NCBI RefSeq assembly: GCF_004212215.1
Contig: NZ_QVFV01000003.1
Coordinates: 248,001 to 312,000, forward strand
Origin: Leptolyngbya iicbica LK
Lineage (GTDB): Bacteria > Cyanobacteriota > Cyanobacteriia > Phormidesmidales > Phormidesmidaceae
Length of the DNA stretch: 64,000 bases
Direction of reading: 5' to 3'
Position numbers and translations under genes: made by a program. The notes below the pieces were generated by a model that saw only the letters and a list, made by a program, of their open reading frames with translations, searched no databases and was not told where the DNA came from. Positions 11,654 through 46,160 of the stretch are shown here, piece by piece. Position 1 is the stretch's first letter. Each line of letters opens with the position of its first letter.

Positions 11654-14600
11654 TCAACTGATTTCGGCAGCTTCTGCTTCGGCAGCCTCGGCGGCTTCGC
11701 GGGCAGCGGTTTCGGCGGCTTCGGCCTCGGCGATTTCCACCAAGAATTGGAGCGCCTTGGACGTGTAAATAGCGCAGTCTTTGGGCGATCGCCCATAAAA
11801 CGCCGACCACGCGGCCTCTTTCTGTGCATCATATTGGCCAGCGCGATCGGGCCGATCTTCGACCCAGGCAATGCGGACAGCGTGACCGATCAGCACATCC
11901 AGGGCGATGTAATCATCAAACTGGAGATCGGGATTGCCTTCAAAAATCGCCGCCAGTTCCCGCAGGGACTCGATGGTGAGGTGGCGATATTCCGGCGCGT
12001 GGATTTTGGTGAGCAAGTGATCCAGGCGGCGGGCGAAGTTGGCCTCTCCCGGCGTCATTTCCGAAATTACCGATTCGCTATCAATGCGGTTGCGGCGATC
12101 GAGCTTGTTGCCAATAATGACGCCCCGGCAGTGATGCAGCAGCTCCCACACTTTGAGGTAAAACTCTTCCGGCAGGCGAGTCAGCTCTCCATCGATTTGT
12201 CGCTTGCGCCACCAGTCTTCCACTGACATTTCACTCGTGGCTTCAAATTGCTCCGGCACCACGCTCCAGGTGACCGGAGACGAGGTTTTGATGTGCAGGG
12301 ATTCTTGTTGAAAGAGGGTGCGATTGATGCCGCTGTAGCCCGCCAATACCTGGCGCAGCCGCATTTTGACTTCATAGGGGCTGAGGGCGGTGAGGCGATC
12401 GTAGGCTTCGTCGCGGGGAATGTAATGCTCGCGGGCCATTTCACCCGTCAGCAAGAGAATCAAATAGCCCACCCGCAGCGTCAGCAGGCCGTCAAACAGT
12501 TCGCGCTCGGATTTGATCAGGACGCTCAGGTAGACGATGATTTCTTGGGTGAGGGCGCGATCGCGTTCGTCTTCTCGACAAAACGTGATGATTTTCTCCA
12601 TGATTTCTGAGTGGGGCATGGGGTCGCGAATCAGCGAGTCATCGGAGTAGGCCTTGCCCACCGTGACGTACTTTTGGCGCACTAACAGCTCGGTGACCGC
12701 ATCCGACAAATTCACATCCATCTTGTTCAGGAGTCCGGCGGCGCGGCGCACGATCACCCAAATTTCCTGCCGTCCCGCTTTGACGTAGACTTCTTCGAGC
12801 AGGTCACCGACTGTCATCGGGCCGTCTGGATCAATGCCTGTGTCAAAATCGAGCCCTTCTAGTGCCTGCAGTCGCGCCAGCAGCTCCACCTGCTCGTACA
12901 GGTTGGTCGATCGCTGCAAATTGTTGACCAGATGCCCCGCATCCGTCTCCCGCTCAATGCGAAACAGGTGCCACACATCTAGCGGAACCGTCTCTTCAGG
13001 CACCATCGCCAGGTAAGCCGAGCGGTGAACGCGATCGCGCAGGGTCGGCGGATGGAAGGCATAAACCCCCACATCATCCACCCGTTCGGAGCCCGCCGTG
13101 AGCAAGAGTTGGTTGAGTGGCCCCAACACCACCGGTACGCCCCCACAACGTCCCGTTTTGAGCTCTTGAATGAGGGCGAGCAAAGGCGACTCATGAATCG
13201 GCCGATGTCCCAACTCGAACATGTCGTAGGTCAGCAAGAGGGTGATGGTCGGTCGGCCGATCGCCTTCCAGTGATAGTGAATGTAGGACAGCTCGCTGCG
13301 AATTTGGGCTACCAAAAAGTGATAGTCCAGGGTGATGTAAAACTTTTGCGGGTCGAGAAAGGACGGCAAAAAGACCGCTGTTTCGCCGCGAATGCGGAAC
13401 ACTTGGGCAGTGGTCAGTCCCCGCAGTCGCCGAATCGGACGTCCCGAAAGGCCCAATTTTTCGTTAATGCCGATTTGGGCATAAATCGCGGACAGCTCAC
13501 CCGACGGATAAATTTTGACGGGCTCGACCTGTTCGGGCACCTGGGTCTCGATGCCGTAATCGGCCAGCGTCTCTTGCAGGGCTTCATTTTCCGCAATCAG
13601 CGCAATTTGGACGATGGACTGCCGTTTGCGACCCACCTGGGCGTGACGCCCCAGGGGATCGATATCGCCGGGGGTGATCAATCGGTTTTCAAGCAGTTGA
13701 CCCAACAAATAAAGGCTCTGCGCCCAAATCAGGGGCACATTCTCGTTCGGCAACCGGGTCTGACTCCCCGGCTTTTCACGCTCTGCCGCGATCGCCTCCT
13801 CCGGCACGTAATACAGCTCGGGCAAGAGTTGCAGGCCATCTTGGGGCACCGCTATCGCCTCTAGCCGTTGCCGATAAAAGTCCACCGCTTTCGCATCATT
13901 GCGAAACAGCCCATCCAAATAGAGATAGGTGAAAAAGAGGGGCCACTCACATTCGATATGCTCAAACTGTTGCAGCTCGGCCGATTCGTAGTGCAGGCGA
14001 GTGGTGTCTTCAATCACCGTCTGGTGACCATCGCGCAAAAAACGCTTGCACCCGTAATTGCCTTGCAGCTTGTCGATGATTTTGGTGCGGGTGCGATCGA
14101 CCAAATCTGCATCCTCAATCGCAAATGCCGGATAGCCAATAATGCTCAGCACCGCCGCATCTACTTCCTTCGAGCCTGATTCGCGGGGCAAGAGGGATTC
14201 CAACGTCAGCCGCGCCCGCGACATTTCATCCGGCAACACATGCACCACCGACGCCTGCCCCCCCTGCACGCCAAACAGGTTCAGACCATCCATCGCCTCT
14301 AGTGCCGCCTTGGCCATGCCGACTGAACTGGCATTGAGTTCTGGCTTGCCGTGGTTCAGCTTGTTGCCCCGCTCCCAAATGCCGTAGTCGGGGGTGCGGT
14401 AGGCCCGCGCCACGTAGTACACCAGGTTTTGAATGAAGCTCACCTCATCCAGCGTGAAAATGATTTGTAAGCCTGAAGCGGTCATCTGCGCCAGCATGAG
14501 CAAGAACACCGAGGTGGCATCAATCTGCAAATGCCCCCACTCGTCATCGCCCACCACCGTGCTGCCGGTCGCCGTGTCGTATTTGGCGTGCAGCGACTCC

Positions 14601-33414: not shown

Positions 33415-34518
33415 TTAGTGGTTGACTGCCACGGCAGGCAATGTAATGCGAACAATGGTTTGCTTTTTGGGGATACTTTCGATGACAAAAGAACCGTGAT
33501 GTAGTTCGACCAGTTTTTTGGCGATCGCTAAACCTAAGCCCACCCCCTGATGCTGAGTTCCCTCCTCTGAGAACTGCAAGTAAGCACCAATGTTGTCAAT
33601 TTCTTCGGGCGTCATGCCTTTGCCGTAATCAATCACATAGAAAACAAAAGCCTGGTTCTGAGAAGCACACACTACTTTTACAGGGCTTCCTTCTTCAGAG
33701 AACTTGAAGGCGTTGGCAATGATTTCTTGGCAAATCCACTTGAAGTTGGATGCTGATACCTGAGCTGAAGCGGGCTCAGCCATGAGCTCAAGATCAGCAT
33801 CACGTAAGAAATCTTTAGCAATCGTGTGAGCAATTTTAATCAGGACTTCGTCAGCGTGCTCTGTTCGCTGCTGCCGCATCGCGATCGCCCTTTCTGCATG
33901 GGGATCTAAGCTCTCCAACTGCGCAGAAAACATCAGTTTTTCTATCAACTCCGCCATCTGCTGAGCATTGCGATTAATCGCCTTGGCTAAACCCACGATA
34001 CCTGCGGTTGGCAAGGTGTCGGCTTTCAGACTTAATGAGTGAGAGAGCGCCCAAATTTCCTCTAGATAAGTGGCAATCTCTCTTGGGATAGCGTTATTGA
34101 CGCTCGTTCTCAAAATCTCTAATTGCTTCTTGGTTTCCTGGTGAGCGGCGGCCTTAAGCTTTAGGCGACTTTGGATAGTGCTTAACAGTTCATCATGAGT
34201 AAACGGTTTGGTGATGTAATCATTGGCCCCTAAATCCATCCCTTCTCTGAAGTCAATCTTGTCTGCTTTCGCCGTCAGAAAAATGAAGGGTAACGTTTGA
34301 GTTTGAGGATTGTTGCGAATTTTTTTTAGCACCCCGTGCCCATCTAAAATCGGCATCATGACGTCACAAATCACTAAATCAGGATGAAATTCCTCAATCA
34401 CCTCTAATCCTTCTTGACCATTAGAAGCACTTTCGACAATATAATCTTCAGCTTGTAGGATGTCGACAATGCTATCTCGAATGCCAACTTCATCTTCAAT
34501 CACAAGAAGTTTAGTCAT
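33415..34518 (-). CDS. Receiver protein with a kinase-like half lacking the phosphorylatable His
   Basis: A 367-residue two-component protein. Residues 1-120 are a receiver with intact acidic site, phosphoacceptor Asp52 (LVICDVMMP) and Lys104 (ITKPF). The second half is shaped like HisKA plus HATPase. In the HisKA helix the usual PHELRTPL is replaced by PREIATYL, with Arg146 at the His position, so it cannot be phosphorylated the normal way. The ATP-binding boxes look intact (WICQEIIANAFKFSEEG; DYGKGM; GVGLGLAIAKK). It overlaps the upstream hybrid kinase by 8 nt, so it is likely its co-translated partner. The protein might bind ATP as a phosphorylation-controlled scaffold. Confidence 0.9.
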   Translation of the reverse strand: MTKLLVIEDEVGIRDSIVDILQAEDYIVESASNGQEGLEVIEEFHPDLVICDVMMPILDGHGVLKKIRNNPQTQTLPFIFLTAKADKIDFREGMDLGANDYITKPFTHDELLSTIQSRLKLKAAAHQETKKQLEILRTSVNNAIPREIATYLEEIWALSHSLSLKADTLPTAGIVGLAKAINRNAQQMAELIEKLMFSAQLESLDPHAERAIAMRQQRTEHADEVLIKIAHTIAKDFLRDADLELMAEPASAQVSASNFKWICQEIIANAFKFSEEGSPVKVVCASQNQAFVFYVIDYGKGMTPEEIDNIGAYLQFSEEGTQHQGVGLGLAIAKKLVELHHGSFVIESIPKKQTIVRITLPAVAVNH

Positions 34519-36403
34519 GGGTAGATCTCTCTTTCATAAATGGTAAATTGACGACAAATGTGGTGCCGTGCCCTAATTCACTGGAACAGGCAATTTTTCC
34601 CTGATGTGCCATGACTGCTTGTTTAGCAATCATCAACCCTAATCCTGTGCCTGAGATATTGCCAACATTGTTACCCCGATGGAAAGGCTCAAATAAATGG
34701 CGCTGATCCTCTTCAGAAATCCCAATACCTTCATCCGACACTTTGAAAATTGCCGTGCCACTATCCACGGTTAGTGAAAATTTTACGGGTGTCTGCTCAG
34801 GAGAGTACTTGACCGCATTTGACAGCAGATTAATCAAAATATGATTTAGCAACTTTTCATCGGCTTCACCTTCAAACCGATCTCCAATGCATTCAAATTC
34901 AATGGGAGTCACTGAACCAGACTGAATAATGTGCATTTCTTCTACTAAGTTCAAGCAGAACTTACGTAAATTAATCATTTGCGGCTGACAGGTGAATTTC
35001 CCAGCTTCTGCTTTGCCGGCAGTTAAGACATCACTCAAGAGGGTCGTAATATATCCCACTGAGTCTTGGATACGTTTGAGAATAATGGCCTGCTTTTCAT
35101 CGGAAAATTTATGCCGATATCGCTCTAAACTTTCGGCTGAAGCCATAATGGTTGTGAGGGGCGTCCGAAATTCGTGAGATGCCATCGAGATAAAACGAGT
35201 TTTGAGTTCGCTCAGTTCTTTCTCTTGAGTGAAAGCTTTGCGAATGTCAAGTTCAGCTTGTTTGCGCTCTGTAATATCCCGAGCAATACCACGATAGCCA
35301 CCAAAGCTACTATCAGGGTTTAAGACGGGTGAACCGCTAATTTCTAAGGTCAGCGATCGCCCGGTTTTGTGGCAACAATTCACTTCAATCTGGGTAAACG
35401 GTTGGTGAGAGCGAATGAAGTAGCTCAGGATAGTGGTGAACCGGATACCTTCATCCGCTGACATTAGATCAGTAAGATCTTTTCCTAGTAAGTCATTAAT
35501 TGTGTAGCCGGTGATGTCTTGCACCTTAGGACTGAGATAAATAAATTGGGAATCTAAATCCATTTCCCAAACCCAGTCATTGATATGCTCCACTAAATTT
35601 CGAAATCGCGTCTCACTTTGTTGAAGGGCGGCCTGAGCCTCTTTTTGTTCGGTAACGTTGATGCCAACACAAACAGCAGCATTACCATTATCGTATTTTT
35701 GTGCAGCGACATAATAAGGCGACTGAGTTCCCTGAGATTCAATAATCACTTCTTGAGCCGCAACTGTTTTGTCGCTTGCGAAAAAGCTTTCAAGAAACTC
35801 CCGGAAATTAAAAATTTCATTTTTGAAGCCTACCTGGCATCCGATAAAGTCAGTTGGATGTAGTTGATAGGCTTCTGCCAAGGCCTGATTGCAGCCGAGG
35901 TAAGTTAAGTCACGGTTGACCCACGAAACCATCCCGGGAACCGCATTCAGGACAGCTTGCAACTGCTGGTTCGTTTGGGCCAGAGTCTTCTTGACTTGGG
36001 CCTGCTGATTGAGGAGTTTTTTGATGATCAGGTGATTTTGAATGCGAGCTTTCAACACAGTGGGGTCGGCGGGCTTCACGATATAGTCATTGCCCCCAAT
36101 TTGAAAACCTTTGGCCTCTTCGCTAGCCTCCCGAAGACCGGTCAGAAAGATGATGGGAATATCTTTTGTGAGGTCGTCTTGCCTGAACTCAATGCATAAG
36201 TCATAGCCACTCAATTGGGGCATCATGACGTCCAGCAAAATCAAATCTGGTGGCGGTGACAGATGAGCTAATTTTCTGGCCTGCTCCGGTTCCGTCGTCG
36301 TCATCACATCGTAGTCTTGCTTGAGATGCTCTGTTAGGACGTCAAGTTGCTCAGGTTGATCATCCACAATCAAGATCTTCGAGAGAGTTGCAGATGTCAT
36401 CAT
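34511..36403 (-). CDS. Hybrid sensor kinase REC-PAS-PAS-HisKA-HATPase
   Basis: A 630-residue cytoplasmic sensor kinase. The N-terminal receiver (ILIVDDQPEQ; LILLDVMMPQLSG) is followed by a coiled coil, PAS 1 (VLNAVPGMVSWVNRDLTYLG), PAS 2 (HINDWVWEMDLDSQFIY, with a PAC tail), HisKA with intact His (MASHEFRTPL) and HATPase (LINLLSNAVKYS; GTGLGLMIAKQA). No membrane span exists, so it senses an internal signal. The start at 36403 (MMTSATLSK) is chosen because GGAG lies about eight bases before it; the frame is open to 36595. It ends within the start of the REC/kinase-like gene, forming a two-gene operon, divergent from the giant kinase. Confidence 0.9.
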   Translation of the reverse strand: MMTSATLSKILIVDDQPEQLDVLTEHLKQDYDVMTTTEPEQARKLAHLSPPPDLILLDVMMPQLSGYDLCIEFRQDDLTKDIPIIFLTGLREASEEAKGFQIGGNDYIVKPADPTVLKARIQNHLIIKKLLNQQAQVKKTLAQTNQQLQAVLNAVPGMVSWVNRDLTYLGCNQALAEAYQLHPTDFIGCQVGFKNEIFNFREFLESFFASDKTVAAQEVIIESQGTQSPYYVAAQKYDNGNAAVCVGINVTEQKEAQAALQQSETRFRNLVEHINDWVWEMDLDSQFIYLSPKVQDITGYTINDLLGKDLTDLMSADEGIRFTTILSYFIRSHQPFTQIEVNCCHKTGRSLTLEISGSPVLNPDSSFGGYRGIARDITERKQAELDIRKAFTQEKELSELKTRFISMASHEFRTPLTTIMASAESLERYRHKFSDEKQAIILKRIQDSVGYITTLLSDVLTAGKAEAGKFTCQPQMINLRKFCLNLVEEMHIIQSGSVTPIEFECIGDRFEGEADEKLLNHILINLLSNAVKYSPEQTPVKFSLTVDSGTAIFKVSDEGIGISEEDQRHLFEPFHRGNNVGNISGTGLGLMIAKQAVMAHQGKIACSSELGHGTTFVVNLPFMKERSTHD

Positions 36404-37331
36404 GCCATTAACTCCAGCCAAAAATCCGACAGCATCGGAAAGGAATCGTATGCTTTGATCCTTCATTAAACGATGATTTCGCTCAAAATACTCAGTATTT
36501 TTATCGAGATTTACATGACTTTGAGAAGGGAAACTGCCATTTTCAAGCCATTCAGAATGATTGAGAATATGCTGTTTACAGGAATCGTCAACCATGTTGA
36601 TTTTGCGCGGGCTTGATTGATTTGATGACTGATCTCAAATCAACCAAGGAGCACATGATTACCTGTAGCGCTCATTCTTCTATCACAGACACCCTGATGG
36701 CTAGAAAAGATACAGGTTGAGTAGGAAGTGATGTTTTGATGTTGTTGAAACAATTTCCTGCTGAACTTAAGATGCCACCAAGCTACTCGAAAATGACATC
36801 CATTCACACTAATTTATGTTTTAGCTAGTCGATGATTCTCTGAAAGGTCTGATGCGAAACCTATGGGATTAGCCTCGGGTCTCTGGCGGAGAATACTGTT
36901 CGCCAGAAGATAAGATATGTGAATTTTTGTTTTGCTTCTCTCGATTACGTCTGGCCTCTTGAAAAGCTAGGAAAAGTATATGAAAAGAAGATTGGATGGC
37001 TGATTTATTACTCTTGATGTTGTTTCAGGAGTTGATGATTGGGACTGCGCTTTGATCGGGGAATACTGGGGCGTGCTCCAGAAGGTCTAGTTAGGCTATC
37101 CTCCATGGGTTTGGGTTGCTTTACCTGGTCTTGGGTCTCTTTGGGAGTTTTATGAAAAGCGGCTTGGTGCAGCGTCGAGGCTGAATTTGAGGGCTGTCGC
37201 GAGGTGACGAGACTCACCGCTTTAAGACCTCTGGTGGGCTGCTCTACGGTCGACCCACCAAAGGTATCCCAATTGTGGGGATTGGTAGAGCACTGGCTGC
37301 AAAATCTCACTTTCCATTCTTGATGTAAGGA
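36404..37331. other. Divergent intergenic region between the two signalling operons
   Basis: About 930 bp between the hybrid kinase start and the giant kinase start. It is AT-rich from 36400 to 37010 and must hold both promoters. A minus-strand frame at 37008-37310 (100 residues, starting MRFCSQCSTNPHNWDTF) is open but lacks family resemblance. No terminator or palindrome stands out. Confidence 0.4.
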
Positions 37332-40300
37332 ATGAACACGCTCTGGGTTGTCGCTAGTTCTGAAACGGTATCTAACACCTATCGGCGTTGGATGCTAGAA
37401 GAGCCATTGGGGAAGACGACGGTTGAGGTGGTTCATACGATCGCGGCTGATACGACCTCTCCTCTCTGGGATTTAATTATTCTGGATGCTGGCGTCGGTG
37501 CGGACTCCACGCAGCCGGTGCGGCAATCTTTGTTGCAAGCAGATGTGCCGGTGTTGGTGGTGGCGGCTCCGCACGAAGAGGCGATCGCTCTAGAGCTGCT
37601 CCGTCAAGGTGCTCAGGACTACATTATTGACCTGTCTGAGCAGTCTTACGACGGTTTGGTTTACAAGGCTCAGCAGTTGACTGCCGCCCAAGCGCCTCCT
37701 ACCCGAGCCGAGAGGTCGCCGTCAATGCCGCTGGCTGAACATGTCAGGGATCAGCCAGTGTCGGCTGTCGTGGCGGATATCGCCGCAGTTGCAGCGACCT
37801 CACTCCAGCTTTTACAAATCGGTTTGGAGGCTGACCAGATTCGCCTGGTGCGGGGTGGACTGGGTGCCCCTGGTGAGGTGATTGCCGCCGCTCAGCCAAC
37901 AACATCTGGTGTCTCGCTCGGTCAGCTAGCGAGCTATTTTGACGGTCAGCTCCACGAGACTGATGCACCCTCAAAATCCACTGATGCCTCAGATGCCGCT
38001 TTGCTCGTTGTGCCGATTTACCAAAGCGGTGTGTTTTGGGGAGCGTGGGTGGTGGAGCAGTGGTCACGATCGCGATCGTGGCAATCGCAAGACCTCGCAC
38101 TATTGCAACTGGCGGCGCAGCAGATTGCCCAATGGCTACAAAGCCAAGAGTTGGCGCAGCAAGCACACCGGGAAAGAGCCCGCCATAACGATGCGATCGC
38201 TGCCCTGGCTGACACCACAGAAATGTATGCCAGTATCTTGCGGAATATCTCTGATGCCGTTTTCATCACCGATCACGCGGGCAAATTTACCTTTATTTGT
38301 CCGAATGTGGCCACCATTTTTGGCTACAACCAAGCCGATGTCGTGGCGATGGGCTCTATCGACCAGCTCTTGGGAGACGATCTCTGTGAACCCAGTGAGC
38401 TGCAAGCCCGTCAAGAATTGACGAATCTGGAATGCCGAATCAATGACCAATCTGGTCGGACCCATGACTTATTGATCAATGTGAAGCGGGTGGATATTGG
38501 TCAGGGCAGCCGGCTGTATACCTGCCGCGATGTGAGCGATCGCAAGCAGGCCGAGACACAACTGCACCAAAGCGAAACGGACTATCGCCGCTTAGTCGAC
38601 AACATCCCGGCAGGGGTAGTAGTGCATGACGGCAACACTGAGATTCTGACCTGCAATCACCGCGCTTCAGAATTATTGGAACTTAGCCTGGCGCAAATGC
38701 AAGGTAAAACGAGCCTTGATCCAGCCTGGTCTTTTTTACAGGAAGACGGTACGCCGCTCTCGCCCGCCGATTTTCCGGTAAATCGTGTGGTGGCAACTGG
38801 CCAACCCTTGGAAAATTGGGTCATTGGGGTCAATCGTCCAGTCAGCCAAACGCAGATCTGGGCCTTGGTCAATGCCTATCCCACCTTTAAGCGCGATCGC
38901 ACCCTCGATCAAATCATTGTGGTGTTTGTCGAGATCACCGCTCAGAAACAAGCCCAAATTGCCTTGGCGGCGAGTGAACGGCGCTATGCCTCCCTAGCGC
39001 AAGCGGCCCCGGTCGGCATCTTCCGCACCGACTCTGAGGGCCACTGTGTTTATGTGAACGATCGCTGGTCTGACATTGCCGGCATGACTCTAGCGCAAGC
39101 CCAAGGCTTTGGCTGGGTCGAGGGTTTGCATCCTGAGGATCGCGATGCCATCACGGCGGAATGGTACGACGCCGCGCAAAATAACCGGCCCTTTAGCCTG
39201 GAATATCGCTTTTTGAGCCCGGCTCAGGAAACCACTTGGGTCTATGGTCAGGCCGTGGCCGAGACTGATATTGAAGGGCAGATCACAGGCTACATTGGCA
39301 CTGTAACGGATATTACTGAGCGTCACCAAGCCGAGGCTCAGCTCAAGGCCAGTGAAGAGCGCTATCGCCTGCTGTTTAACATTGCCAACGATCTCATCTT
39401 GATGCACCCATTGGGCACTCCTGAGCAGCCGGGGCAGCGCTTCATTCATGTGAATGCCATGGCCTGTGAACGGCTGGGGTATACCCAGGCAGAATTGCAG
39501 CAGCTAACCCCACTGGACCTCATCCCCCCTGGGGAAATGGACGAAGTCCCCGCCGAGCTCGATATTCTCACTACGAATGGACAACTGCTCTTTGAGAAAA
39601 CGCTGATTGCTAAGGACGGGCGGCACATTCCGGTGGAATTGCATGCCCATGTTTTTGAATGGGATGGCCAACCGATGGTGCTATCCATCGCTCGAGACAT
39701 CAGCGAACGCAAAGTGGTGCAAGATCAACTAAAAGCTCGGGAACGTCTGTTTAGAGCGACCTTTGATCAATCGGCGGTGGCCATGGCCATGGAGTTTATC
39801 GATGGTCATTTCGTCCGCGTCAATCAAAAAATGTGTGACCTGCTAGGTTACACCGAAGCCGAACTCTTAGAATTGCACGCGGCTCATCTGCGCCATCCTG
39901 ACTATCGCGCAGCGGCACTCAACATCACCGAACAGCTGTTGGCTGGCGAAGTGAGTCTTTGGCAAGGTGATGAACAATTCCTCAACAAAGCTGGCCAGCC
40001 AGTCTGGATCAATACCTGCATCAGCTTGATTCGAGACACTGATGGCCGACCTGACTATTTCCTCAGCGTGATGCAGGATGTGGGCGATCGCATCCAAGCC
40101 CACGCGGCCTTGCAAGCCAGTGAAGTTTTATTCCGCAATACTTTTGAGCAGGCTGCAGTCGGCGTGGCCCATGTGTCTCCTACAGGGAACTTTGTGCGGT
40201 TAAACCAGCGATTTTGCGACATCCTCGGGTATCCCCACGATGAACTCATTGGCCTCACCTTCCAAGACATTACCCATCCTGATGACCTGACCGTCGACCT

Positions 40301-43300
40301 CAAACAGGTACAAAATTTGCTGTCAGGGGCTGCCAACACCTACAGCCTGGAAAAACGCTATATCCATCAAACTGGCAGTATTGTCTGGGTGAATCTCACC
40401 GTGGCCCTGGTCAGAAATGCGGAGGCGGCTCCCGATTACTTCATTGCCGTGGTGCAAGACATCAGTGCGCTCAAAGCGACCGAAGAGCGCCTCTCGCTCG
40501 CTCTGAGTTCAGCGAATCAGGGCATCTATGATCTCAATCTCAAAACGGATGAGGCGATCGTCGGTCGTGAGTATGCGTTGATGCTGGGCTACGACCCCGA
40601 CCACTTTGCCGAAACCGTGACCTCTTGGCGCCAGCGAGTTCACCCGGAGGATCAAGCCGCTGTCAAAGCTGCTTACCAAGCTTATGCCGAGGGCCAAACC
40701 CCCAACTATCGAGTCGAGTTTAGAATGCTCACTTGCCAACACACCTGGAAGTGGGTGCTGTCGGTCGGCAAATTTGTCGATTGGGATGTTGACGGTAACC
40801 CGACGCGACTGTTGGGCACCCACACTGATATTGACGATCGCAAGCAGGCTGAACTGGAACTGCAAGCGCTGAACCAAACCTTAGAACATCGGGTGCTGAG
40901 GCGGACGCAAGATCTCACGGCGGTCAACCGCCAACTCAAAACCCAAGCGGCAGCGTTGCACCAAGCCAACCAACTGCTGCAAACCGTGATGGATAGCATT
41001 CCGCAGCGGATTTTTTGGACAGACCGAAACTCCATTTTGCTCGGCTGCAACCGGCAATTTGCCGCCGATCGCGGACTCACAGTTGAAGCGGCGATCGGTC
41101 GCAACAATCATGAGGTTTCAGCCACGCCAGAAGAAGCCGACTTGTTTGATGTGGGCGATCGCCAGGTCATGGAATCGGGGGAACCCAATTTGCATGTTCA
41201 AGAAACCTGGCGTCGGGCCGATGGGGTCTTACTCCATCTCGACACCAGCAAAGTGCCTCTCCGCAATGAAGCTGGGGAAGTGATTGGCCTGTTGGGCTGC
41301 TATGAAGACATCACGCAGCGCAAAGTGATGGAAAACCGGATTCAACAACAGCTGCAAAAAGAGCGGTTGTTGTCGTCGCTGCAGCAACAAATGCGCGAAA
41401 CCCTTGACCTGCAAGAAATTTTGGATCTCACGGTGCAGCAGGTGCAGCAGTTACTCAAGATCCATCGAGTGCTGATTTACCAGATTGATGAACATCGCCA
41501 GGGCCAAGTGATGGCTGAGGCGACTGGTTGTGAATGTTTTCCGGTCAGTTTGCAAGGGGCGACCAATCATCTGACGATTTCGGAGGCTTGTTATCGCCAG
41601 TATTTGCCTGGTAAAGCCCAGGCCATCGCTGATATGCGCCAGGAAGATGTGTCTGAGTGCATGCAACTTTTAACGCAACAGACTCCCGGTGTGGTGGGTG
41701 AAATCATGGTGCCCATCGTGGAGCATGGCGGTCATCGAGTTTGGGGGCTGCTCATTGGCCATCAATGTGAACGGCCCCGCCAATGGCAACGGTGGGAACG
41801 TCAGTTTTTGGAGCAGCTCAGCAGTCACTTAGCGATCGCCATTCACCAAATTTGCCTGTACGAGCAGCTTCAGGCCGAACTCCAGCAGCGGCAACAAATT
41901 GAAAAATCATTGCGGGCCAGCGAAGCCCGTCTCCAGTTAGTCACCGACTCGGTTAACGGCTGTATTGCTTATGTGGATGCTGAGCAGCGCTATCAGTTCA
42001 TCAACCACACCTTTGAAGCTTGGTTTGGCTGGGAAAAGGCCAATATTATCGGACGCACCGTCAAATCGATTATTGGCGCTGCCGCTTACGACGCCACGCG
42101 CAATTATATTACGCGGGCTTTAGCAGGCGAACCTGTTACCTATGAAGCGGCCCTGCCTTATCAACGCGGTGGGGTGCGCCATGTCATCGCTTCGCTGGTG
42201 CCAGAAATTGATGAGCAGCGGCAGGTGCATGGCTATTACGTGCTGATTACGGATATTAGCGATCGCAAAGCCGCTGAACTGGCTTTACAAGAGAGTCGCC
42301 ACTTTATTGAGCAAATTGCGAACGCCTCACCTAATGCGATTTACCTCTACGACTTGATCGAACAGCGCAATCTATATGTGAATCGGGAAATTGGAGCCAT
42401 GTTGGGCTACAGCCCCGATGAGATTCAAGCGATGGGGGCACAGCTACTCTCCCGCCTGATGCACCCCGACGATTGGCGACGCTATCAAGCCTATTGTCAG
42501 CAACTCATGGGTGCCCAAGATGGCGAAGTGCTGGAATTTGAATACCGCATGCGCCATCAAGAGGGCAATTGGCACTGGCTCAATAGTCGTGACAGCATCT
42601 TTGCGCGCAATGAGCAGGGCCAGGCGACGCAGATTATTGGTTCGGCCCAAGACATTACCGATCGCAAGCAGGCCGAAGCGCTGATTCAAGCCCAGGCCAA
42701 GCGAGAAAAACTGTTGCGAGAGATTACCCAGCGGATTCGGAGCACTTTAGAGCTCGCGACGATTTTTACCACCGCTTGTGATGAGATTCGCCAAGCGTTG
42801 CAGTGCGATCGCGTGGGGGTTTTTCAATTTGATCCCGCTGCCGGCTACACCGTTGGCGAGTTTGTCGCCGAGTCGACGGGGGCTGATATGGCCTCCACCC
42901 TGCACGTCACCATCGAAGAGCCCTGCTTTGCCGAAGCATACGCCGAGCAATATCGTCGAGGCCGTTACTTCATTGCCAATAATATTTACGAGGCGGATAT
43001 CTCCAACTGTCATGCTGGCATTTTAGAGCTGTTCCAGATTCATGCCTGTATGGTGATGCCGCTGCTGGAAGGCGAGGCCCTGTGGGGGCTACTCTGCATT
43101 CATGAATGCCAGGCCCCCCGCGACTGGCAAACAGCGGAAATTGATCTTGTGCATCAACTCGCTGCGCAAATTGCGATCGCACTCCGGCAGGCCAAATTCT
43201 ACACGCAGACCCAGGCCGAACTCAGCGTGCGCAAACAGGCAGAACGCCAAATTGCCCGCCAATTGCGAGAACAACAAACCCTCGCCGCAATTACGCAGAT

Positions 43301-46160
43301 TACCCGAGAATCCCTCAACGTCGCTGACATTCTGGAAAGCATTGCCGCTCAGGTGAAAGAAATCCTCAACGGTGATCGGGTCATTATTTTCCGGCTATTT
43401 GACGATGGCCGCACCCGCATTATTGAAGAGGCCGTCGGGCCGGACTTGCCCCAGCTTAAAGATCAGCAATGGAACGATGAAGTCTGGTCACAAGATATTT
43501 TAGAACGCTACTGGCGGGGCGAACCGCGTCAGGTACCCGATGTGATGGATGACATCTGGACTGAGTGCTTGCAAGCGTATGCTCAGTCAGGGCAAATTCG
43601 CTCGAAGCTGGTGGCCCCCATCTTGCAGCACGATGCCGCAGTGGAAATGAACCGTTGGACTTGCCCAGAGACGCATACCAAAATTTGGGGGCTGTTGGTC
43701 GTTCATGCTTGTGTGGCCCCACGGCAGTGGAAAGACTCAGAGGCGCGGCTGTTACAGCAAATTGCCGACCAGTTAGCGATCGCGATGCGCCAAGCTGGGT
43801 TGTTCGAACGGTTGCAGACCGAACTGCAAGAGCGCCAACATGCCCAAAACTTGCTCACCGAACGCAACCAACAGCTCGCCACCTCGAATGAGCAGTTGGC
43901 CCATGCCACTCGGATGAAAGACGAGTTTTTGGCGAATGTCAGTCACGAAATTCGCACCCCCATGAATGCCATTATCGGCATGACTCAACTCACTTTAGAA
44001 ACGTCACTCACAGCCCGGCAGCGCAACTATCTCACCAAAATTGACAAATCAGCGACGACTTTGCTGCATATCATCAACGACATTCTCGACTTTTCTAAGA
44101 TTGAAGCCGACAAGCTCGAACTAGAGGTCGTGCCGTTTGCCTTGGATGAAGTGCTCAGCAACCTGGCTGATGTCATTGGGGTGCAAGCGAGTCATCAAGG
44201 GCTCGAACTGCTCTTCCACGTGGCTCTGGATACGCCGTTACAGTTGGTGGGGGATCCGTTCCGACTTGGTCAAATTTTGTTGAACTTGGTGTCAAATGCG
44301 ATCAAGTTTACGGCGCAGGGCCATGTCTTGGTGGCAGTGAGGGTTGAGCAGGCCAATGAGACGTCGTGCCGACTGCGGTTTGCCGTGACCGATACCGGCA
44401 TTGGCCTGAGTGCCGCACAACAGGCCAAATTGTTCCAAGCGTTTGCCCAGGGCGATGCCTCCACGACGCGCAAGTTTGGCGGCACCGGGCTAGGGCTCGT
44501 GATTTCTCAACGCTTGGCTCACCTCATGCAGGGAGAAATTGGCTTGGAAAGCACCCTCGGCCAGGGCAGTACCTTTTGGCTGACGGCGACGTTCCAACTG
44601 GCGACGGCATGCCCGAATGCTCTCTTGACCCAGTGTGAACTCCCCACCGCACTGCAGGGAATCCGGGTGTTGGCGGTGGATGATAACGCTGCTGCACGCA
44701 CAATCTTTCACGAAGTGCTGTCAAGCTTCCAGTTTGAGCCGACCGTGGTGGCGACGGCGGCTGAAGCGATCGCCGCGATCGCCGCGGCTGAAACTGCACA
44801 GCAGCCCTTTGAGGTGGTGATTGTGGACTATGTCATGCCCGATATTGACGGCATTGCCCTGATTCAGCAAATCCATCGGACGTATCCAACTGCTATTGGT
44901 CCGGCCATTTTGCTCGTGACCGCTCATCGGCAGCGGGTGGTGCAAGAGTCTGCCCAGGCCGCCGGCATTAACCACCTGCTCTATAAACCTTTGCAACCGT
45001 CTCAACTGTTGGAGGCCATTGTCGAAGCAGTGCTCCCAGGTCAGGCCACCGTTACGGTGCCAGCGGTGCCGTCGCTGGCGCTGCCGTCTCCGGGGGCGTT
45101 AGCCCAGGTGCGGGTGCTCTTGGTCGAAGATCACGAAATCAACCAAGAACTGGCCCTGGAATTTTTGACCCAGGCGGGGGCGATCGCGACCGTGGTGGAT
45201 CATGGCCGGGCTGCTATTGAGGCCCTGCAACAAGCCCCCTTTGATGTGGTGCTGATGGATTGCCAAATGCCCGTGATGGATGGCTATGAAGCCACGCGCC
45301 ATATTCGTGCCCTGCCGGGGGCCGTCAGCCAGGTGCCGATCATCGCCATGACGGCCAACGCCATGCAGGGCGATCGCCAAAAATGTCTCGCGATCGGCAT
45401 GAATGATTACCTGGCCAAACCGATCGTGAAAGCGGAAATGTATGCCGCAATTCAGCGGTGGGTACCCTCAGAACAGGTTCCCTCATCACGGTCAACCCGT
45501 TCTATGCATGCCCTTCCCATCTCCCCAGTTCCTGCTGCTTTTACCCACCTCAACTCTTTTAATATCGAGCAGGGCTTGCAATACGTTGGCGAAAATCTAG
45601 ACCTTTATATCAAACTGCTCCAGCAATTTCTGAGCAAAAATCAAACTTTTGTCGAGCAGTTTCAACAGCATATTGACCAAGAAGATTATGTGACAGCGAC
45701 CCGGTTAGTCCATAACCTCAAAAGTACGGCGGCTACTTTAGGGTGTGCGGCCCTCAAAAATCCCGCCCAAACGCTTGAACAGTCCCTGCTCCAACATCCG
45801 CAAAACTATGATGCCGATAGCTTCACTGCAGTAGTCGATATTCTAGCCACGGTGCTGAATGAACTCACCACCTGGCAAGCCTCTTACCATCAGCCCCAGC
45901 TCCCTGAGGAGACGCTCGATGACCTTGATTGGTCAGTGGTCTTGCAGCAAGTGCAGCAGATGCAAACAGCTTTAGACAGCGATCTCGTCGCCGCCCTTGA
46001 GCATCTCAAATATCTTCAAGAAGTCTTACAAAATCATCATTCCACCCGCCAGATTGTGAATACTCTTGCCAGGTCGCTCGACGACTTTGAGATTGACCGG
46101 GCCCAGACCACATTACAGACGCTCGCCCAATTTGCGAACTCGCGGATACCGCATGGCTAA
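37332..46160 (+). CDS. Giant hybrid histidine kinase with multiple PAS and phytochrome-like GAF domains
   Basis: A 2942-residue soluble sensor. Domains in order: a degenerate receiver (1-115), GAF (~140-280), eight PAS/PAC units (from ~297, 414, 546, 672, 802, 928, 1049, 1209), GAF (~1355-1515), two PAS units (~1529, 1652), two GAF domains (~1790-1960, ~1980-2170), HisKA with His2205 (ANVSHEIRTPMN), HATPase, two receivers (~2443 and 2592) and an HPt domain with His2794 (VHNLKSTAATLG). Three GAFs resemble cyanobacteriochromes; one keeps the Cys-His pair (Cys1893-His1894), the others Cys1443 and Cys2079 without His. A full phosphorelay is encoded in one chain. Its stop overlaps the GGDEF-EAL gene start by 8 nt, so c-di-GMP turnover is its likely output. 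Confidence 0.93.
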   Translation: MNTLWVVASSETVSNTYRRWMLEEPLGKTTVEVVHTIAADTTSPLWDLIILDAGVGADSTQPVRQSLLQADVPVLVVAAPHEEAIALELLRQGAQDYIIDLSEQSYDGLVYKAQQLTAAQAPPTRAERSPSMPLAEHVRDQPVSAVVADIAAVAATSLQLLQIGLEADQIRLVRGGLGAPGEVIAAAQPTTSGVSLGQLASYFDGQLHETDAPSKSTDASDAALLVVPIYQSGVFWGAWVVEQWSRSRSWQSQDLALLQLAAQQIAQWLQSQELAQQAHRERARHNDAIAALADTTEMYASILRNISDAVFITDHAGKFTFICPNVATIFGYNQADVVAMGSIDQLLGDDLCEPSELQARQELTNLECRINDQSGRTHDLLINVKRVDIGQGSRLYTCRDVSDRKQAETQLHQSETDYRRLVDNIPAGVVVHDGNTEILTCNHRASELLELSLAQMQGKTSLDPAWSFLQEDGTPLSPADFPVNRVVATGQPLENWVIGVNRPVSQTQIWALVNAYPTFKRDRTLDQIIVVFVEITAQKQAQIALAASERRYASLAQAAPVGIFRTDSEGHCVYVNDRWSDIAGMTLAQAQGFGWVEGLHPEDRDAITAEWYDAAQNNRPFSLEYRFLSPAQETTWVYGQAVAETDIEGQITGYIGTVTDITERHQAEAQLKASEERYRLLFNIANDLILMHPLGTPEQPGQRFIHVNAMACERLGYTQAELQQLTPLDLIPPGEMDEVPAELDILTTNGQLLFEKTLIAKDGRHIPVELHAHVFEWDGQPMVLSIARDISERKVVQDQLKARERLFRATFDQSAVAMAMEFIDGHFVRVNQKMCDLLGYTEAELLELHAAHLRHPDYRAAALNITEQLLAGEVSLWQGDEQFLNKAGQPVWINTCISLIRDTDGRPDYFLSVMQDVGDRIQAHAALQASEVLFRNTFEQAAVGVAHVSPTGNFVRLNQRFCDILGYPHDELIGLTFQDITHPDDLTVDLKQVQNLLSGAANTYSLEKRYIHQTGSIVWVNLTVALVRNAEAAPDYFIAVVQDISALKATEERLSLALSSANQGIYDLNLKTDEAIVGREYALMLGYDPDHFAETVTSWRQRVHPEDQAAVKAAYQAYAEGQTPNYRVEFRMLTCQHTWKWVLSVGKFVDWDVDGNPTRLLGTHTDIDDRKQAELELQALNQTLEHRVLRRTQDLTAVNRQLKTQAAALHQANQLLQTVMDSIPQRIFWTDRNSILLGCNRQFAADRGLTVEAAIGRNNHEVSATPEEADLFDVGDRQVMESGEPNLHVQETWRRADGVLLHLDTSKVPLRNEAGEVIGLLGCYEDITQRKVMENRIQQQLQKERLLSSLQQQMRETLDLQEILDLTVQQVQQLLKIHRVLIYQIDEHRQGQVMAEATGCECFPVSLQGATNHLTISEACYRQYLPGKAQAIADMRQEDVSECMQLLTQQTPGVVGEIMVPIVEHGGHRVWGLLIGHQCERPRQWQRWERQFLEQLSSHLAIAIHQICLYEQLQAELQQRQQIEKSLRASEARLQLVTDSVNGCIAYVDAEQRYQFINHTFEAWFGWEKANIIGRTVKSIIGAAAYDATRNYITRALAGEPVTYEAALPYQRGGVRHVIASLVPEIDEQRQVHGYYVLITDISDRKAAELALQESRHFIEQIANASPNAIYLYDLIEQRNLYVNREIGAMLGYSPDEIQAMGAQLLSRLMHPDDWRRYQAYCQQLMGAQDGEVLEFEYRMRHQEGNWHWLNSRDSIFARNEQGQATQIIGSAQDITDRKQAEALIQAQAKREKLLREITQRIRSTLELATIFTTACDEIRQALQCDRVGVFQFDPAAGYTVGEFVAESTGADMASTLHVTIEEPCFAEAYAEQYRRGRYFIANNIYEADISNCHAGILELFQIHACMVMPLLEGEALWGLLCIHECQAPRDWQTAEIDLVHQLAAQIAIALRQAKFYTQTQAELSVRKQAERQIARQLREQQTLAAITQITRESLNVADILESIAAQVKEILNGDRVIIFRLFDDGRTRIIEEAVGPDLPQLKDQQWNDEVWSQDILERYWRGEPRQVPDVMDDIWTECLQAYAQSGQIRSKLVAPILQHDAAVEMNRWTCPETHTKIWGLLVVHACVAPRQWKDSEARLLQQIADQLAIAMRQAGLFERLQTELQERQHAQNLLTERNQQLATSNEQLAHATRMKDEFLANVSHEIRTPMNAIIGMTQLTLETSLTARQRNYLTKIDKSATTLLHIINDILDFSKIEADKLELEVVPFALDEVLSNLADVIGVQASHQGLELLFHVALDTPLQLVGDPFRLGQILLNLVSNAIKFTAQGHVLVAVRVEQANETSCRLRFAVTDTGIGLSAAQQAKLFQAFAQGDASTTRKFGGTGLGLVISQRLAHLMQGEIGLESTLGQGSTFWLTATFQLATACPNALLTQCELPTALQGIRVLAVDDNAAARTIFHEVLSSFQFEPTVVATAAEAIAAIAAAETAQQPFEVVIVDYVMPDIDGIALIQQIHRTYPTAIGPAILLVTAHRQRVVQESAQAAGINHLLYKPLQPSQLLEAIVEAVLPGQATVTVPAVPSLALPSPGALAQVRVLLVEDHEINQELALEFLTQAGAIATVVDHGRAAIEALQQAPFDVVLMDCQMPVMDGYEATRHIRALPGAVSQVPIIAMTANAMQGDRQKCLAIGMNDYLAKPIVKAEMYAAIQRWVPSEQVPSSRSTRSMHALPISPVPAAFTHLNSFNIEQGLQYVGENLDLYIKLLQQFLSKNQTFVEQFQQHIDQEDYVTATRLVHNLKSTAATLGCAALKNPAQTLEQSLLQHPQNYDADSFTAVVDILATVLNELTTWQASYHQPQLPEETLDDLDWSVVLQQVQQMQTALDSDLVAALEHLKYLQEVLQNHHSTRQIVNTLARSLDDFEIDRAQTTLQTLAQFANSRIPHG

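Follow-up and report, generated by a model that had tools for sequence, protein, structure and literature searches.

In cyanobacteriochromes (CBCRs) of the DXCF type, a second cysteine adds to the bilin at C10 and is released upon isomerisation at C15, while the extended red/green (XRG) CBCRs are defined by a WXDXXL motif (excerpts of PMC11284453). Far-red CBCRs absorb at about 725-750 nm in their 15Z dark states (excerpts of PMC5578081), and in Anacy_2551g3, for which 728 nm is given, Lys956 forms a salt bridge to a propionate of the phycocyanobilin (PCB) chromophore (excerpts of PMC11480761). In addition, light controls cyclic-di-GMP through the CBCRs SesA, SesB and SesC (excerpts of PMC5871770). 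Here we describe a 2942-aa hybrid sensor kinase of Leptolyngbya iicbica LK, encoded by an open reading frame (ORF) uninterrupted by stops within a stretch of 64,000 nucleotides, hereafter the window (assembly GCF_004212215.1, contig NZ_QVFV01000003.1, positions 248,001 to 312,000 of the forward strand). Pfam finds four GAF stretches in this kinase, three of them whole (GAF1, GAF2 and GAF3) and the fourth partial (Table 1). Based on the homology, residue motifs, conservation, purifying selection, pigment genes and gene order observed at this locus, we favour, with some reserve, a model in which the kinase would sense two colours of light by means of bilins, with GAF2 as a dual-cysteine, short-wavelength domain and GAF3 as a far-red one, and would feed both into a phosphorelay towards cyclic-di-GMP.

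The initial annotation had located a Cys-His pair, C1893-H1894, where CBCRs attach their bilin, and this placement was confirmed by alignment of GAF2 to CBCRs as well as by structural pairing with TePixJ. The best PDB sequence matches of the 207-aa GAF2 domain are CBCRs or proteins engineered from CBCRs and include 6oap (2.6e-41, the best), 6bhn (2.1e-33) and 3w2z (1.8e-28), in all of which the Cys-His matches C1893-H1894 letter for letter, with Cys-Tyr standing in the engineered miRFP670nano. In a predicted model of the GAF2-GAF3 tandem (mean predicted local distance difference test 86; predicted template-modelling score only 0.54, for which reason the relative placement of the two domains was not used), VIA-align paired residues 28-179 with residues 436-584 of TePixJ (4glq; Z 24.4, root-mean-square deviation (rmsd) 2.0 over 149 residues), such that E1863, C1865 and C1893 (Cys117 of the model) fall on TePixJ residues 492, 494 and 522 when counted from the end of the aligned range; 494 and 522 are, we assume, the numbers of the TePixJ cysteines. 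C1893-H1894 lies within ISNCHAGILELFQIHACMV, inside the Pfam GAF at residues 1808-1951, and WGLLCIHECQAPRDW follows downstream at residue 1918.

GAF is a general ligand fold, and GAF2 could in principle be an ordinary cyclic-nucleotide or small-ligand domain whose Cys-His arose by chance, given that 37 Cys and 85 His among 2942 residues lead to an expectation of 1.07 such dipeptides and C1893-H1894 is the sole one observed in the kinase. The frequency of the dipeptide is thus unremarkable and the evidence rests on its position. We consider such a generic domain very improbable and rejected both it and a chance Cys-His, as the alignment to CBCRs extends over the whole domain at 1e-41 and puts the pair at the attachment site, as also does the pairing with TePixJ, and as Cys and His occupy that site in most family members (each in at least 90% of 36 tandem sequences, hand-chosen and mostly with a second cysteine). 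The genome contains one PcyA, two heme oxygenases and 12 phycobilisome-domain matches and is therefore equipped for pigment synthesis, so that GAF2 combines a CBCR-homologous GAF domain and a Cys followed by His with a bilin supply in the host. The further suggestion of the initial annotation, that GAF2 may bind PCB and thereby confer light sensing on the kinase, is supported by the homology, the purifying selection and the pigment genes; it was, however, incomplete, in that it omitted the second cysteine C1865 and the far-red-type GAF3.

C1865, the predicted second bilin cysteine, lies 28 residues upstream of C1893 in a stretch that reads IEEPCF where the blue/green DXCF receptor TePixJ reads IEDPCF, and it points to a dual-cysteine short-wavelength photocycle, not to a simple single-cysteine one. 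For comparison, tandem loci were collected by a GAF3 pattern search and ordered by their match to the entire 404-aa query; the best 80 of 85 were used, so that the GAF2 types among them form a non-random sample. Together with the window they make up 81 rows, and 65 of these were counted for GAF2 once 15 rows without an alignable GAF2 (some ending at a contig end) and L091, which is gapped and reads HCF, had been dropped. The second cysteine is a trait of the family, being present in 50 of the 65 rows (window included), the other 15 consisting of seven XRG-like D-x-Y-L, six green/red-like V-F and two D-P-G-F sequences, and the motif Cys and Phe are invariant in an alignment of 15 sequences hand-picked from the second-Cys rows. 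In a GAF tree from one FastTree run, several deeper nodes of which are weakly supported, the 14 tips nearest to GAF2 all carry the second cysteine and 6oap lies outside them. GAF2 has the Cys-Phe of the DXCF motif (C1865-F1866) next to an intact Cys-His, but Glu1863 in place of the Asp two residues ahead of the second cysteine, and it is for this Glu that we class it as a variant within the DXCF-type clade and not as a DXCF member. An XRG identity was discarded, since WXDXXL with its stacking Trp is absent and IEEPCF stands there. Equating Glu1863 with the conserved acidic residue of the green/red (RcaE-type) CBCRs was unsupported by the alignment and was dropped because the Glu of FPxEVF aligns one column later, at Pro1864.

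GAF2 might instead be a single-cysteine sensor that holds PCB through C1893 only, with C1865 off the bilin and a pocket reshaped by Glu1863 and other changes. Its best solved match, 6oap, is without the second cysteine (VEDQYF), none of the other 49 second-Cys tandem rows shows the Asp-to-Glu exchange, and excerpts of PMC11284453 describe one DXCF CBCR in which the second cysteine is dispensable for isomerisation. Nevertheless, we regard this as rather unlikely, because Cys-Phe has been kept even though the adjacent residues changed (IEEPCF compared with VEDHCF in L074, the closest relative), because E-P-C-F persists together with Cys-His in another CBCR group, and because the tree, within the limits of its deeper nodes, sets GAF2 among second-Cys domains and apart from 6oap. 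As a variant of the DXCF-type clade, GAF2 probably works like a DXCF CBCR, and its colour would probably be blue or green.

Among the 50 second-Cys tandem rows, the window alone has Glu at residue 1863, the other 49 having Asp. The closest relatives keep the Asp together with Cys-His, namely L074 of Leptolyngbya sp. SIOISBB (74% over the tandem; EDHCF) and L075 (64%; QDHCF), and in the tree GAF2 joins first L062, whose coordinates show it to be the L074 locus retrieved by a different search, and then L075, with support of 0.98 and 0.995. As GAF2 groups with these Asp-bearing domains, Glu1863 arose on the branch of this species, and we rejected its common inheritance with other GAFs of this genome that read E-x-C-F. 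Those own-genome GAFs (L004, L005 and L008) read FEEPCF, IDEPCF and IEESCF. The exchange need not mean a loss of function, as it recurs in another group that keeps both cysteines: in the CBCR group of L005, E-P-C-F with Cys-His is found in 5 of 30 rows (query included) and Asp in 25, and in a wider sample Glu takes the place of the Asp in 9 of 128 distinct second-Cys GAFs. Having occurred here and independently in another group, with both cysteines kept, the Asp-to-Glu exchange might provide natural variants for studying the role of the DXCF acid. In addition, GAF2 carries an extra cysteine, C1906, at a position where 41 of the 50 second-Cys tandem rows have Asn (in the wider sample, taken as 129 second-Cys rows with the window GAF2 counted twice, 79 have Asn and 38 Lys); of the 65 counted rows, none besides the window, L074 and L075 has Cys at this position, and the ungapped pairing makes its GAF3 counterpart K2092, the Lys956 of Anacy_2551g3. 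H1904 stands in the window where 44 of the 50 second-Cys rows have Arg.

Several observations speak against a two-colour receptor that signals through the neighbouring regulator gene. Of 49 strongly conserved columns, 8 hold a deviating residue in GAF2, more than in any other of the 47 rows compared (the 50 second-Cys rows with L092, L123 and L125 left out); L074 and L099 follow with 7. Drift or retuning of the pocket may therefore be under way. Replacing Asp with Glu in the insert-Cys CBCRs UG1 and UG2 kept PCB binding and lowered photoconversion, an effect milder than that of Ala (excerpts of PMC5240096), and in the tandem homologues L081 and L102 the canonical GAF2 cysteine is gone (Tyr and Asp instead) with the second cysteine kept. 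The pair is patchy, only one of five other genomes of the genus matching at E 1e-70 or better. Moreover, where the downstream DNA sufficed for a count (71 rows, among them the window), a response regulator lies next to the kinase in 25 (the pattern was strict and this is an undercount), the downstream DNA of 10 further rows being too short, and the 10 of these 25 neighbours scanned by Pfam (again including the window) comprise 6 REC-GGDEF-EAL and 4 REC-HisKA-HATPase proteins; none was found next to the kinase of the closest relative, L074.

Some of these points would also fit a GAF2 whose photochemistry has been lost, binding no bilin or a bilin that does not photoconvert, with input through GAF3 alone or through PAS domains. 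The high number of departures, the displacement of the family Asp, Asn and Arg by Glu1863, C1906 and H1904, and the lowered photoconversion of the Asp-to-Glu variants in other CBCRs all favour such a loss. We nevertheless judge it improbable, since neither the two bilin cysteines nor the His has been lost, since five of the eight departures (S1805T, I1830V, D1884N, L1907M and L1947I) are common to L074, which keeps the full DXCF motif, and since the ratio of nonsynonymous (dN) to synonymous (dS) substitution relative to L074 is about 0.15 for GAF2 and for GAF3. The underlying values are dN 0.201 and dS 1.318 for GAF2, 0.169 and 1.136 for GAF3, and 0.157 and 1.052 for GAF1, the ratio of which is like those of the other two; they indicate purifying selection on all three domains as a rough measure, because dS exceeds 1 and is near saturation. 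The departures of GAF2 fit either a retuning of the pocket in this lineage or the onset of its decay.

The second element of the two-colour model, GAF3, belongs to the far-red CBCR lineage. A 196-aa stretch (43281-43870) matches 6uv8, the PDB title of which is a far-red cyanobacteriochrome, at E 8.1e-57 and with 54% identity over 169 residues without gaps, and the predicted GAF3 model superposes on it with Z 28.2 and rmsd 1.1 over 164 residues. We take 6uv8 to be Anacy_2551g3, and its residue 914 to be the functional Glu of the structure paper. The numbering is in keeping with the former assignment, because Lys915 and Lys956 as given in excerpts of PMC11480761 land on lysines of 6uv8 in the alignment. 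Across 78 of the 81 rows (L151, L152 and L153 were dropped), Glu is found at position 914 in 77, Cys at 943 in 74 and Lys at 956 in all 78, and in the tree the four tips nearest to 6uv8 are GAFs that share a CL and W-x-x-E-x-W signature. GAF3 clusters with 6uv8 and keeps the attachment Cys, the acidic residue 914 and Lys956; it is thus probably a far-red sensor, and the case for a specific colour is stronger here than in GAF2. A second far-red-type GAF (WADEVW) is present in the same genome at L016 (C5:241936-242595) in a 1848-aa open frame, where Cys-Pro replaces the Cys-Leu of the lineage. Among the 16 Pfam families found in the kinase at E <=0.001 there is no PHY domain, GAF2 being followed by GAF3 and GAF3 by HisKA; neither GAF2 nor GAF3 is therefore a phytochrome, and a canonical or knotless phytochrome was discarded for want of a PHY domain behind a bilin GAF.

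The GAF2-GAF3 pair is widespread but patchy across cyanobacteria. Of 386 genomes of the phylum, 118 contain some match to the 404-aa query at E 1e-30 or better and 20 (own included) match nearly the whole query at E 1e-80 or better, and 9 of the 63 genomes of the order (own included) match at E 1e-70 or better. A plain-protein scan of the genome contigs found no relative. In some loci the GAF preceding the far-red GAF is of the green/red type, with V-F and Cys-Leu (L115, L118, L120, L127, L143 and L148, from Microcoleus, Lyngbya, Argonema and strain Phorm 6), and in others it is of the red/green type with D-x-Y-L (L121, L122, L124, L126, L128, L130 and L147, from Nostoc, Calothrix, Dolichospermum, Phormidium and Pseudanabaena). 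It appears that the partner GAF has been swapped among these loci next to a far-red GAF that is retained. More tentatively, the pair might be a conserved two-colour module with a constant far-red GAF and a swapped N-terminal partner (second-Cys, red/green-type or green/red-type), represented here by a three-cysteine EXCF variant (C1865, C1893 and C1906) with an altered colour or bond chemistry, through which the kinase would compare short-wavelength with far-red light and set cyclic-di-GMP; this wider proposal is possible, yet we would not expect it to hold in full.

How the two-colour kinase might operate, from chromophore binding and wavelengths to phosphotransfer and the direction of the output, we infer as follows. 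GAF2 would attach PCB through C1893, and addition of C1865 at C10 of the bilin would give a blue- or violet-absorbing state, from which C15 isomerisation and loss of the C10 bond would lead to a state of longer wavelength; as in DXCF CBCRs, some of the pigment is possibly converted to phycoviolobilin by isomerisation. GAF3 would attach PCB through C2079 and absorb far-red light in the dark state, as Anacy_2551g3 does. Both domains might then shift the long helix that runs from GAF3 towards HisKA-HATPase (residues 359-403 of the model), and phosphate would pass from REC to HPt and on to the REC-GGDEF-EAL regulator, which may alter cyclic-di-GMP and so, probably, motility or aggregation. The ATG of the regulator lies ahead of the kinase stop codon (46158-46160), resulting in an 8-base overlap of the two genes, and a REC-GGDEF-EAL gene also adjoins the kinase of L075, which has HisKA, HATPase, two REC stretches and HPt.

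GAF1, which the initial annotation had missed, is of the CBCR type and lies N-terminal to the GAF2-GAF3 pair, with no clear bilin signature; its nearest relative, in L062 of the same genus, reads VPASSY and Cys-Leu and so has neither the second cysteine nor Cys-His. The orthologous kinase frame of L074 (L074:3547-13109) stops within the second REC and resumes in another frame; a separate ORF (12453-13109) resembles the HPt region of the window, and a GGDEF/EAL-type ORF, as judged by reading, lies on the opposite strand. The split of the kinase might reflect a sequencing error, a rearrangement or a real gene fission. Upstream of the kinase in the window, two overlapping two-component genes were recognised on the opposite strand (33415-36595) by reading their translations.

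Table 1. Features of the kinase locus, with positions in the window and residues of the kinase.
Feature	Position	Strand	Basis or content
REC plus ATPase ORF	33415-34518	-	translation reading
REC, PAS and histidine-kinase sequence ORF	34511-36595	-	translation reading
Hybrid sensor kinase, 2942 aa	37332..46160	+	multiple PAS, GAF1-3, partial N-terminal GAF, HisKA, HATPase, two REC, HPt (Pfam)
Partial GAF at kinase N-terminus (222-267)	about 37995-38132	+	Pfam 1.1e-6
GAF1 (about 1342-1516), CBCR-like	41355..41879	+	SEACY at the second-Cys site; Cys-Met at the canonical site
GAF2 (about 1790-1963), Cys-His-bearing GAF	42699..43220	+	Pfam, PDB sequence matches, structural alignment
E1863-P1864-C1865-F1866, DXCF-position motif with Glu for Asp; C1865 predicted second bilin cysteine	42918..42929	+	alignments
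C1893-H1894, canonical bilin-attachment Cys and His	43008..43013	+	alignment to CBCRs
C1906, extra cysteine at the column of far-red CBCR Lys956	43047..43049	+	alignment, ungapped pairing
GAF3 (about 1975-2166), far-red CBCR lineage	43254..43829	+	54% identity to 6uv8 across 169 residues
E2050, residue 914 of 6uv8, acidic residue before Lys915	43479..43481	+	ungapped pairing
C2079, residue 943 of 6uv8, predicted GAF3 bilin attachment	43566..43568	+	ungapped pairing
K2092, Lys956 (propionate salt bridge)	43605..43607	+	ungapped pairing
HisKA (2195-2259) and HATPase (2307-2419)	43914..44588	+	Pfam
REC2 (2595-2708) and HPt (2762-2841)	45114..45854	+	Pfam; the other of the two REC stretches precedes REC2
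REC-GGDEF-EAL response regulator, 601 aa	46153..47958	+	Pfam

If the two-colour model holds, a single kinase would sense two ends of the visible spectrum through adjacent pockets, and the locus might offer a natural system for the study of how serial bilin GAFs are integrated, whether by sum, ratio or veto, before the phosphorelay. In the literature searched, no paper paired "cyanobacteriochrome" with "EXCF"; an earlier description of the tandem is possible, and we do not claim the tandem as undescribed. Compared with known systems, GAF2 shares the GAF fold, the Cys-His and the second Cys-Phe at the same positions with the GAF domain of TePixJ and other DXCF CBCRs (4glq, 3vv4), and differs in having Glu1863 for the motif Asp of TePixJ and Cys1906 where TePixJ and the DXCF CBCRs have Asn (the RANL column); furthermore, TePixJ is a methyl-accepting chemotaxis protein, whereas the output in the window is a hybrid kinase with HPt. 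The best sequence match of GAF2, 6oap, which we take to be the dual-sensor histidine kinase PPHK, is likewise a histidine kinase, but one without the second cysteine that GAF2 has in C1865. GAF3 conserves residues 914, 943 and 956 of Anacy_2551g3 in its gap-free match, while Lys915 is replaced by Val, and unlike Anacy_2551g3 it sits behind a second-Cys GAF in a 2942-aa kinase, its colour being predicted. Finally, SesA, SesB and SesC of Thermosynechococcus connect light colour with cyclic-di-GMP, as we propose for the kinase of the window, but according to excerpts of PMC5871770 those photoreceptors make or degrade cyclic-di-GMP themselves, whereas this kinase presumably acts through a separate protein, the REC-GGDEF-EAL regulator.

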